Below are positions 13,585 to 17,375 of a stretch of DNA of 64,000 nucleotides, piece by piece. The notes beneath the pieces were generated by a model that saw only the letters and a list, made by a program, of their open reading frames with translations, was not told the DNA's origin and ran no database searches. How positions within the stretch are numbered: the stretch's first letter is position 1; each line of letters starts with the position of its first letter. The position numbers and the translations under genes were made by a program. Source of the stretch: Methanosarcinales archaeon (GTDB taxonomy: Archaea; Halobacteriota; Methanosarcinia; Methanosarcinales; Methanoperedenaceae); the NCBI GenBank assembly GCA_905339155.1, contig CAJPFJ010000016.1, positions 1 to 64,000 of the forward strand, written 5' to 3'.

Positions 13585-15056
13585 ATTTCAATTTACTTCT
13601 CCCTGAAATAGTGCTGACCTTACTGGCTTTTGTGATTATTTTAATGGGTTTATTGATCAGCAATAAATCCAAGAATATGCTTGGATATTTAAGCGCAGCG
13701 GGTCTTCTGGCTTCACTTGTTTATGTTCTTGGCAACGGGATGACTGAGAAGATGAGTTTCTTCTATGATTCCCTGGTTGTTGACCCATTGTCCCAGGTTT
13801 TCAAATTAATATTCCTGGTAGTTTCATTAATCACAGTCATTGCTTCTATCGAATATTTCAAGAATAATCGGAATCAGGATGAATATTATACTCTCATTCT
13901 CCTATCTACGGTTGGAATGATGATAGTAGCATCGGCAAATGACCTGATAGCCTTATTTGTAGGTTTTGAACTTGCAAGCATGTCAACATACGTACTTGCC
14001 GGTTTTGAGAAAAAGAACCCGGCTTCACTTGAAGCAGCGTTGAAATATTTCATAATAGGTTCTATATCCTCAGCTTTGATGTTATTTGGTATGTCGCTTG
14101 TATATGGAATAACCGGTTCGACCAATATTCCTGCGATAATTGAGTTCTTTAAGATCACCCACCTCAGTGCAGAAAGCTCACTTGGGATACTGGCAATGAT
14201 TTTCCTTGTTGCAGGATTTGGTTTCAAGATGGCGCTTGTGCCATTCCATATGTGGGCTCCGGATACATACGAAGGTTCACCCAGCGTTGTCTCTGCCATG
14301 CTTGCAGCCGGTTCAAAGAAGATGGGATTTGTTGCAGCATTCAGGGTTCTTATCCTGGCATTAGTGGCCATCAAAGTCGATATCCAATTAACCTTTGCAA
14401 TACTTGCAATAATAACCATGACTTATGGCAATGTTGTAGCAATTTCCCAGCGCAGCATCAAGAGGATGCTTGCATATTCATCCATCGCCCAGGCTGGATA
14501 TATTTCACTTGCTTTTGTTGCAATGACCCAGATGTCAATCGCAGGCGGCGTCCTTCTTGCTCTCGGCCATGCCCTCATGAAAGCAGGCGCATTTATTGCA
14601 GTGGCAGTTGTCAGCTATATGGTTTTGAATGATAATAAGAATGCCAGGAATACAGATGATTTAGGCAATTTTGCAGGGCTTGGAAAACGCGCACCAATAA
14701 CGGCATTGTCCCTGTTCATATTTTTCCTGGCCTTAGCAGGAATACCGCCATCAGCAGGATTCATCGGAAAATTCGTATTATTCTATTCAATAATGGTAGA
14801 AGCTTTAACGCCTGCAACCAGCTGGTTCTTAATTATAGTGATCATTGCAATTTTAAACAGCGCACTATCCATTTATTATTATGCCAGGGTCATAAGATAT
14901 ATGTATGTTTTACCTGCGAATGGCGAAAGAATTAAAGAACCTGTTCCTTATGTGATAGCACTCCTTATTGCAGTGATAGGTACGATAGGAATAGGCCTGT
15001 ACCCTGAACCCTTCATCCAGATGGCGATCAATGCGGCTCAAGTTCTAGGAGTGTGA
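13581..15056 (+). CDS. fpoN: F420H2 dehydrogenase subunit FpoN (NuoN-like)
   Basis: The third antiporter-like subunit, adjoining the FpoHAJK core. It has 491 residues. Motifs: FVGFELASMSTYVLAGFEKK (about 126-145), GFKMALVPFHMWAPDTYEGS (about 214-233), AGSKKMGFVAAFRVL and KRMLAYSSIAQAGY. It starts at ATGA inside the fpoM stop. The fpoO ATG follows 6 bp after its own stop. Nothing unusual. Confidence 0.96.
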   Translation: MNFNLLLPEIVLTLLAFVIILMGLLISNKSKNMLGYLSAAGLLASLVYVLGNGMTEKMSFFYDSLVVDPLSQVFKLIFLVVSLITVIASIEYFKNNRNQDEYYTLILLSTVGMMIVASANDLIALFVGFELASMSTYVLAGFEKKNPASLEAALKYFIIGSISSALMLFGMSLVYGITGSTNIPAIIEFFKITHLSAESSLGILAMIFLVAGFGFKMALVPFHMWAPDTYEGSPSVVSAMLAAGSKKMGFVAAFRVLILALVAIKVDIQLTFAILAIITMTYGNVVAISQRSIKRMLAYSSIAQAGYISLAFVAMTQMSIAGGVLLALGHALMKAGAFIAVAVVSYMVLNDNKNARNTDDLGNFAGLGKRAPITALSLFIFFLALAGIPPSAGFIGKFVLFYSIMVEALTPATSWFLIIVIIAILNSALSIYYYARVIRYMYVLPANGERIKEPVPYVIALLIAVIGTIGIGLYPEPFIQMAINAAQVLGV

Positions 15057-15061
15057 TAATT

Positions 15062-15412
15062 ATGGCAGATTGTGAATTATGCGGCGCAGCAAGACCAACC
15101 CTTTGTCCTGTAAAAGTATTAGACGAGCGTGTAATAGTCGCTTATCCGAAAGGGACATGGAGAGGCATAAATGAAGAATGTCTTAACAGGTGTCATGAAG
15201 GGAACATTAATCGTGTTCCCATAAAAGCAAAAAAATGTGATCTATGCGGCACAACGAATGTGCCCCTATTCCTGGTGACAGTACAGATACCCATATTCCA
15301 GGAACCCTATCACAGGGATTCAAACAAAGCGATATGCGAGAGTTGTTTTGAAGCCTGTGAAGATACGATAAAACGGCAAGTTGCTGAAAAAGAAGAGTCA
15401 CATCATCATTAA
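15062..15412 (+). CDS. fpoO: F420H2 dehydrogenase accessory subunit FpoO
   Basis: Small cysteine-rich protein found only at the end of archaeal fpo clusters; proposed from the family to bind an iron-sulfur centre, with an unclear role. The protein has 116 residues from the ATG at 15062 (AGGAGTG upstream); a GTG at 15053 would add three residues and overlap fpoN. Cysteines are arranged as CELCGAARPTLCP, CLNRCHEG, CDLCGTTN and CESCFEACED. Its presence closes the canonical gene order A-B-C-D-H-I-J-J-K-L-M-N-O. The F420-oxidising FpoF is not here and must lie elsewhere, as is usual. Confidence 0.9.
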   Translation: MADCELCGAARPTLCPVKVLDERVIVAYPKGTWRGINEECLNRCHEGNINRVPIKAKKCDLCGTTNVPLFLVTVQIPIFQEPYHRDSNKAICESCFEACEDTIKRQVAEKEESHHH

Positions 15413-15464: not shown

Positions 15465-17375
15465 ATGCAAGAGAATTATATCTTGCCTTTAGATTACACT
15501 GATTTAAGAGAAATGAAAAAGCGTCAGGATATTGAAGGGTTGCTGAATATCCTTGAAACCGGCGATATAAAAGAATGCCGGGAAGCGATACGGATGCTAG
15601 GTGAACTGAGGACCAGGAAGGCAGTTTCTCCTCTTTTGGGATTTCTTGAGACCGATGATGTACACATCCGTTCAAACGCAGCCTGGTCTCTTGGTGAAAT
15701 AGGACATGTAAAAGCTGTTCTTCCCCTGATCGGGCTTTTGAATGACCCTGTTGAAAATGTTCGGATAAATGCGGCGTGGTCGCTGGGACGAATCGGCGAT
15801 AAACGCGCTTTATCGGTATTAAGGTCCGCAATGAAGAACGGTTCAACAGACCTTCGAAAACATGCCAGGGAAGCAATAGCCAGAATAGAATCTAATGAAA
15901 AAGATAAATGGCGCGAAGATGCTGACATTCCTGATATCGTAGACATTCCCCTGATTGAAATTGAAGTTCCATCAAATATGGAGTGTAATTATATATCAAG
16001 GGTAGAAGATGCTGACTCCCAGACAGATTATGAGAACCTGGCCAGGTTCTCAAGAAATGTCCAGATAAGAGATACAGGTGATTCATTTTCAGAAGAAGAT
16101 ACACGAAAGATCGTATTGGGATTAAAAGATGATTCCAAAGGCCTTGTATCAGTCGATATTATATTCAAGTATAAAGATAACACAAATGGCGAAAAAAAGT
16201 CAAGTTCCGTCTGGCTGCAAATGGCAAATGTAGGCACAAATGGCGATCACAAGACTGAACGGGAAATAGAAAGGATTGATTCCAGGCCAAAAAGAAGAAC
16301 TGCCGAAGGTAGCAAGAGAATAGCGAAAATAAAACGTTCAAGAAGGCCAAAGCCGGTTGAATATGATATACCTGACGAAGCAGGATCAGATCAATTAGAG
16401 AAATATCCTTCTGAAATTGATGACACTGATATAGAAGAGTACCCGGAAGAGAGGGCTAAGAAGATTATTACTCGCCGGGAGAAAAGACCAGTTGTCCGCG
16501 AAATACCAGAAGAACAAGAATACGGGTATGAAGAAGAAACTCAAGAAATTCCTGAACTGACAAGACCTGAACCAAAACTCAAAGAGACAAGACCTGAACC
16601 AAAACTCAAAGAGACAAAACCTGAAGTGCAAGCTGCCCCTCCAAAAATACCAGATAAGCCAAAACCGGAGCCAGAAATCAAGACCGAAATAGTCAAAGAG
16701 AAGGTAACGCCGGAAATAAAGCCGCCTGTAGAAGCCGTAATAGCAAAACCTGCAACCGTACCAACTGCAGGTGGAAATGTGAATTCGGCAGTCAAGCTCT
16801 TAAGTAATATAGGTATGTCAGGTATGACGAATGCGGCTTCAACTGTCACCCAGTTAGGAGGAGAAGAAGCAGAGTCGAAACATTCTCAACTGCGTACGAT
16901 TCCAATTGAAGAAATGAATGATGAAATAACAGGTCTTGGCGATAGTGTTGTGATGATCAGTGTAGAACTTCATGGGAATGGACAGGAAGGAGAAGTAAAA
17001 GGCGAGATGCAAATGTATATTTCAAGCCAGAATGCGCTTGAGATAGCTAATGAACTCCTTTGCAACACTCCGGATACTGCAATCAAGAAATTCAATGATG
17101 ACATTACTTCCACATTGAAGGAAACTGCCAATATTTACGGGGGGCAGTATATTAGCGCAATTTCCGAATATATTGGAGTGCCATTATCATTAAAAGCCCC
17201 GTCATTCAAGACAGGCCAATCTTCACAGGTCGCAGAATCCGTATTGAAGGATATTACCGGAAAAGTGGAGTTTGCCCTTGCTACCAATATTGAATTCGGG
17301 AATAACAGGATTGGCCGTTTGATAATGCTGGTTGACCCCAAATCGTTTGATATTATAATTTCTAAGTTATTTTAA
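15465..17375 (+). CDS. HEAT-repeat / charged linker / CheC-type phosphatase fusion
   Basis: A 636-residue protein with three parts. Residues about 15-145 are PBS-lyase-type HEAT repeats (NAAWSLGEIGHVKAVLPLIG, NAAWSLGRIGDKRALSVL). Residues about 150-430 are a long charged, proline-rich and probably disordered linker with a duplicated nine-residue unit (RPEPKLKET). Residues about 440-636 are a CheC/CheX-like domain: KLLSNIGMSGMTNAASTVTQ and then the phosphatase signature S549-x3-E553-x2-N556-x22-P579 in TSTLKETANIYGG. In CheC this motif removes phosphate from CheY-P. No chemotaxis gene is nearby. The gene begins 52 bp after fpoO on the same strand. The combination suggests a signalling phosphatase with a protein-binding N-terminus. 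Domain calls are from motif reading only. Confidence 0.8.
   Translation: MQENYILPLDYTDLREMKKRQDIEGLLNILETGDIKECREAIRMLGELRTRKAVSPLLGFLETDDVHIRSNAAWSLGEIGHVKAVLPLIGLLNDPVENVRINAAWSLGRIGDKRALSVLRSAMKNGSTDLRKHAREAIARIESNEKDKWREDADIPDIVDIPLIEIEVPSNMECNYISRVEDADSQTDYENLARFSRNVQIRDTGDSFSEEDTRKIVLGLKDDSKGLVSVDIIFKYKDNTNGEKKSSSVWLQMANVGTNGDHKTEREIERIDSRPKRRTAEGSKRIAKIKRSRRPKPVEYDIPDEAGSDQLEKYPSEIDDTDIEEYPEERAKKIITRREKRPVVREIPEEQEYGYEEETQEIPELTRPEPKLKETRPEPKLKETKPEVQAAPPKIPDKPKPEPEIKTEIVKEKVTPEIKPPVEAVIAKPATVPTAGGNVNSAVKLLSNIGMSGMTNAASTVTQLGGEEAESKHSQLRTIPIEEMNDEITGLGDSVVMISVELHGNGQEGEVKGEMQMYISSQNALEIANELLCNTPDTAIKKFNDDITSTLKETANIYGGQYISAISEYIGVPLSLKAPSFKTGQSSQVAESVLKDITGKVEFALATNIEFGNNRIGRLIMLVDPKSFDIIISKLF
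16559..16625 (+). repeat. 27-bp tandem repeat in the linker of the HEAT-CheC gene
   Basis: Two identical 27-bp copies (16559-16585 and 16586-16612), beginning gacaagacctgaacc, plus a partial third copy (16613-16625). They encode TRPEPKLKE-type nine-residue units in the disordered linker. This is consistent with length variation of a flexible tether. Confidence 0.85.

Follow-up and report, generated by a model that had tools for sequence, protein, structure and literature searches.

A HEAT-repeat protein with a predicted CheC-type phosphatase domain is linked to the chemotaxis system of Methanoperedenaceae

Architecture of the HEAT–CheC fusion gene

The DNA analysed here (the window, a stretch of 64,000 nucleotides) carries, 52 bp past fpoO, an open reading frame in which HEAT repeats are joined to a C-terminal CheC-type domain (Table 1). 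This fusion had been recognized in a preliminary description made from the letters alone, and it is borne out by the fold, the profile matches and the invariant catalytic residues. Judged by a GAGG-type ribosome-binding site that is common to the orthologues, translation probably starts at the TTG codon that corresponds to residue 7 of the window frame, six codons inside the annotated ATG. All residue numbers given here are counted from the ATG and will drop by six if the TTG is the start.

Table 1. Coordinates of the fusion gene, its parts and its upstream neighbour in the window
Feature	Position	Strand	Residues or length	Remarks
fpoO	15053..15412	+		Upstream neighbour, Pfam FpoO; context only, not part of the system
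HEAT–CheC fusion ORF	15465..17375	+	636 aa from ATG	
Probable true start (TTG)	15483	+	630 aa	TTG with GAGG-type ribosome-binding site conserved in orthologues
HEAT repeats	15531..15884	+	~23-140	Pfam HEAT_2 / HEAT_PBS; conserved in orthologues
Middle all-beta domain	15942..16229	+	~160-255	Conserved; six predicted strands, no helix
Variable charged/proline-rich linker	16248..16775	+	~262-437	Low conservation, many gaps
CheC-fold domain	16776..17372	+	438-636	Profile, PDB, orthologue and structure-model evidence
Degenerate first CheC site	16785..16844	+	441-460 (SAVKLLSNIGMSGMTNAAST)	Catalytic D/E/N now K/N/M
Active second site	17109..17132	+	S549, E553, N556	Invariant in 19 sequences
Proline of the signature	17199..17201	+	P579	Invariant

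From the alignment of 18-19 orthologous sequences, it is clear that the HEAT repeats, a middle block and the C-terminal domain are conserved, and that there is one highly variable part, the linker. The HEAT half is matched by HEAT_2 (Pfam, 1e-25, best stretch residues 23-100) and by HEAT_PBS (residues 99-124). The 280-residue charged linker proposed earlier is thus correct for its distal part, but its first part had concealed the conserved all-beta domain. The model of this middle domain, of modest confidence (pLDDT 67), has six strands and is free of helices, and in a class-wide search its profile was confined to the HEAT–CheC protein family. Foldseek comparison with solved structures returned no convincing match (best E 0.04, TM about 0.3), and a PH domain was rejected. 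A relationship to CheF was likewise rejected by hhalign, with no CheF among the Foldseek matches listed. A 290-aa form that comprises the HEAT repeats and the beta domain and lacks the CheC part is encoded in one chemotaxis-positive genome (G002, L013:1516-2388), where the next gene is unrelated.

The C-terminal domain has a CheC fold with one intact site

The C-terminal domain is matched by the NCBIfam CheC model across residues 443-635 (3e-13) and, among PDB sequences, by Thermotoga maritima CheC (1xkr, 2.4e-5). Its Pfam scores stay just below the curated cut-offs, both for CheX (24.2 bits for the whole protein and 26.7 for the isolated domain, cut-off 27) and for CheC (15.2 and 19.0 bits, cut-off 22). 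With the NCBIfam Thermotogales CheC model (cut-off 250 bits) the fusion protein scores 50-54 bits; the canonical CheC of the same genome fails this model too (163.7), while passing in Pfam (74.9).

The AlphaFold2 model of residues 432-636 (pLDDT 81.8, pTM 0.80) gave T. maritima CheC as the best Foldseek match in the PDB (E 4e-11), with TM values of 0.65-0.68. The other top matches were the Haloarcula CheC-like protein 3qta, FliY (4hyn) and CheX, and then the middle domains of FliM, which have the CheC fold, and no unrelated fold was returned below 1e-3. As modelled, then, the C-terminal domain has the CheC fold.

The signature S549-x3-E553-x2-N556-x22-P579 had been placed correctly, and its four residues are invariant in the 19 aligned Methanoperedenaceae domains, where mean column identity is 77%. 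Since this invariance extends across 18-19 orthologues, the signature is not a chance match; its Glu–Asn pair is present in every homologue that keeps the CheC domain. Neither of the two outcomes named beforehand as refuting the assignment, a fold unlike CheC or homologues devoid of this pair, was therefore observed. The preceding pseudo-repeat helix noted earlier does represent the first CheC site, but it is degenerate: compared with the canonical CheC of the genome, the catalytic Asp is changed to Lys or Arg, the Glu to Asn or Asp, and the Asn to Met. Residue comparison thus shows a dead first pseudo-site and an intact second site in all orthologues that have the domain.

By its fold and its catalytic S/D-x3-E-x2-N motif, the fusion protein belongs to the CheC-type phosphatase superfamily (CheC/CheX/FliY), its catalysis being predicted. 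It does not qualify as CheC proper by sequence, having neither two catalytic sites nor scores above the curated cut-offs.

The source genome carries a complete arl/che operon

The named orthologues of the fusion come from Ca. Methanoperedens or Methanoperedenaceae, and the source genome is that of a Methanoperedens, a methane-oxidising archaeon. The window contains no gene for a receiver, CheA, CheY, ArlI or an archaellin, so the earlier statement that chemotaxis genes are lacking holds for the window; it fails for the genome. Contig 17 carries, in order, genes for a receiver protein, archaellins, ArlI (708 bits, cut-off 550), ArlJ (618 bits, cut-off 550), CheY, CheB, CheA with a P2 response-regulator-binding domain, CheR, canonical two-site CheC and CheD, the CheC gene lying beside cheD and apart from the fusion. 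ArlCE (FlaC plus FlaD/E domains), a KaiC-like ATPase, MCPs and CheWs are encoded on contig 24. A short second protein with a FlaD/E domain (about 200 aa) is encoded away from ArlCE at L061:7561-8181 and in about 20 other genomes, many of them Methanoperedens.

A 210-aa receiver protein (RR210) is encoded just ahead of the archaellin genes (L055:8550-9182 and L053:17890-18522), and is a second candidate substrate of the phosphatase. Since the genome has 29 receiver domains in all, CheY is not the sole possible substrate.

The fusion gene is linked to archaellum and chemotaxis genes in relatives

In the source strain the fusion gene lies by fpo, outside the arl/che cluster. Among 18 named relatives, however, ArlCE is encoded within 6 kb of the fusion in 11, and in six of them the two genes are convergent and 5-54 bp apart. 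The fusion of Ca. M. nitroreducens (L054/L055) stands at the end of one continuous archaellum–chemotaxis supercluster, in the order HEAT–CheC, ArlCE, KaiC, a 144-aa protein, CheW, MCP, a zinc ribbon, the receiver protein, archaellins, ArlI, ArlJ, CheY, CheB, CheA, CheR, CheC and CheD. At four loci (L037, L038, L039 and L041) the fusion separates the fpo operon from ArlCE. Of this fpo–fusion–ArlCE arrangement the window retains the fpo flank, the arl flank being gone. A link to fpo as the main function was rejected, as fpo is one flank of the cluster only and is absent beside the gene in several relatives.

The fusion co-occurs with the chemotaxis system

The presence of the fusion was scored against that of CheD in 34 Methanoperedenaceae genomes, the main count being limited to genomes at least 90% complete. 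Both are present in 18 of these and both absent from 7, with no discordant genome (Fisher p 2e-6, with genomes treated as independent and shared ancestry ignored); G002 is counted among the 18 though it has the HEAT and beta part only. Over all 34 genomes, 20 have both, 9 have neither, one has the fusion without CheD and four have CheD without the fusion. These four are 63-87% complete, and the single genome with the fusion alone (G023) is 74% complete and carries cheB-cheY-receiver and MCP genes beside the fusion on the same short contig (L050).

The che-less genomes that were checked retain ArlI, ArlJ and ArlCE. Because the motor genes ArlI and ArlCE are kept there, the fusion tracks chemotaxis and not the motor as such, and the gene marks the environmental methanotrophs of this family as chemotactic or non-chemotactic kinds. 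An FpoL tree meant to count losses gave no resolved branching at the genus base and among the che-less lineages.

Two further observations were made in these genomes. Che-less Methanoperedens carry, ahead of ArlJ and with ArlCE nearby, two distinct ArlI genes (about 540 and 531 aa) that adjoin each other with a gap of 6 bp (L154:6110-9334, L155:7569-10784, L156:3204-6428 and L157:8156-11380), whereas the che-positive genomes examined have a single full-length ArlI in the arl/che operon. One genome (G008) has two diverged FpoL and two HEAT–CheC genes, as though two strains had been assembled together.

These results bear directly on the proposal, made with the preliminary description, of a stand-alone phosphatase for a response regulator recruited by way of HEAT contacts. 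We take this to mean a regulator outside chemotaxis, perhaps one connected with fpo and energy metabolism. The proximity to fpoO in the window, the fpo flank retained in 6 of the 18 named relatives and the many receiver domains of the genome would fit such a role. However, none of the seven near-complete genomes without che genes has the fusion, and these include four in which fpoL was found (G001, G012, G013 and G016). Moreover, linkage to arl/che genes is found in most relatives, even where fpo lies elsewhere (L043). Co-occurrence and synteny have already largely refuted this proposal, which we now consider highly improbable. The CheC-type domain it contained is upheld; as for the substrate, the complete arl/che operon of the genome, the co-occurrence and the synteny point to the CheY of the chemotaxis system, or to a response regulator encoded in that cluster, and not to an unrelated one.

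The architecture is so far confined to Methanoperedenaceae

A search for the same architecture elsewhere in archaea found none beyond Methanoperedenaceae in the 238 class genomes or 394 phylum genomes sampled, and an IMG/VR search returned no HEAT–CheC protein. The matches of a GTDB scan, with patterns that reach close relatives only, came from Ca. Methanoperedens, Methanoperedenaceae and archaeal MAGs. Apart from these, a single long frame turned up (G419, 408 aa), and it was excluded because it encodes a tandem CheC and lies beside a CheY gene. HEAT–CheC is thus a new domain architecture in the CheC-type phosphatase superfamily, known so far only from Methanoperedenaceae, although a rare remote case could escape such sampling. 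A literature search on Methanoperedens with archaellum and chemotaxis found nothing among the papers covered.

CheF (PF04283, at the Pfam cut-off) was detected in none of the 34 Methanoperedenaceae genomes and is present in other members of the class. This could be read to mean that the fusion is a switch adaptor replacing CheF, in which the CheC-fold domain takes CheY-P, the HEAT/beta half signals to ArlCE and catalysis is secondary; the gene adjoining ArlCE and the FliM middle domains among the Foldseek matches agree with such a role. A pure adaptor, however, would have no need for a strictly conserved active site, and the fusion has no sequence similarity to CheF. Furthermore, other genomes of the same order that have both che and archaellum genes (among them G037, G045, G049 and G053) also lack detectable CheF and yet have no HEAT–CheC protein, which weakens CheF loss as proof of replacement. 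We therefore hold the adaptor role to be unlikely.

Proposed role of the fusion protein

Co-occurrence with che genes, together with linkage to ArlCE, KaiC, CheW and MCP genes, is strong evidence that the fusion is a member of the Che system. Catalysis, CheY as the substrate and docking to ArlCE we infer. Our preferred reading, with a probability of about 0.6, is that the fusion is the chemotaxis-system CheY-P phosphatase of Methanoperedenaceae, tethered by its HEAT/beta half, most likely at the ArlCE ring. The CheC-type domain would strip the phosphate from CheY-P, or from the sister receiver encoded upstream of the archaellin genes, and would be tied by the flexible linker to a scaffold of HEAT repeats and beta domain that most likely docks at the archaellum, on its cytoplasmic ArlCE ring. 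The switching signal would then be ended where it acts, as with FliY at the bacterial C-ring and, as has been proposed, with CheC2–CheF in Halobacterium. Docking to ArlCE is suggested by the gene neighbourhood and by analogy, the middle domain having neither a convincing structure match nor similarity to CheF.

A more specific version would have a single protein both receive and dephosphorylate CheY-P at the ArlCE ring, as a fused switch-and-phosphatase in the place of CheF. The lack of a CheF match in Methanoperedenaceae allows, and does not prove, that the fusion took over this role, and we regard this version as rather doubtful.

The fusion could instead act in adaptation at the receptor array, where its CheC domain would sense CheY-P or dephosphorylate CheB-P and control CheD, with the HEAT half near CheW and MCP. 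The same cluster does contain CheW and MCP genes, CheC–CheD binding and a CheC1–CheB interaction have been reported for other organisms (PMC3579733), and the Halobacterium HEAT_PBS protein OE2401F, which is essential for archaellar switching, binds CheD as well as CheF (PMC2666748). Yet the canonical two-site CheC beside cheD is already the expected adaptation partner, and among conserved neighbours it is ArlCE, and not cheD, that lies nearest to the fusion. An array role is thus a possibility that we take seriously, though not a likely one.

These findings bear on two general problems, the removal of CheY-P at the archaellum and the coupling of chemotaxis to the motor in archaea that lack CheF. 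A covalent HEAT–CheC fusion whose gene is linked to that of ArlCE offers a concrete and directly testable candidate; the interaction data from Halobacterium suggest a motor-located CheC.

Comparison with known systems

Like CheC from T. maritima (1xkr/2f9z), B. subtilis and archaea, the fusion has the full-length fold with both pseudo-repeats and, at site 2, S/D-x3-E-x2-N with the distal Pro. It differs from CheC in its dead site 1, in the HEAT and beta domains joined by a long linker, in scores below the Pfam and NCBIfam cut-offs, and in coexisting with a canonical CheC in the same genome. With CheX it shares one working site, and Pfam CheX is its best curated profile match (just below the cut-off), but its domain spans the ~200-residue CheC layout, in contrast to CheX chains of about 150 aa. 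Unlike CheF, it has no PF04283 match, and the profile–profile probability is 0.1%.

Two further parallels are Halobacterium and FliY. In Halobacterium, CheC2 binds CheF1/CheF2, and dephosphorylation of CheY-P at the archaellar switch was proposed (PMC3579733). CheF, which is located on ArlCDE, contains no bona fide phosphatase domain (PMC9126983). The Halobacterium set of CheC2, CheF and OE2401F resembles the fusion in having a single CheC, a HEAT_PBS protein and a link to FlaCE/FlaD (PMC2666748, PMC3579733), but consists of separate proteins instead of one fused chain, and CheF is undetected in Methanoperedenaceae. Similar to FliY, the CheY-P phosphatase of the flagellar C-ring, the fusion carries a CheC-like phosphatase on another module and is tied by genome context to a motor ring. 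Unlike FliY, it has no FliN domain in Pfam, its chain ends with the CheC domain, its context is the archaellum and not the flagellum, and its scaffold is made of HEAT repeats and a beta domain. By this analogy, the fusion may work at the archaellum much as FliY does at the flagellum.
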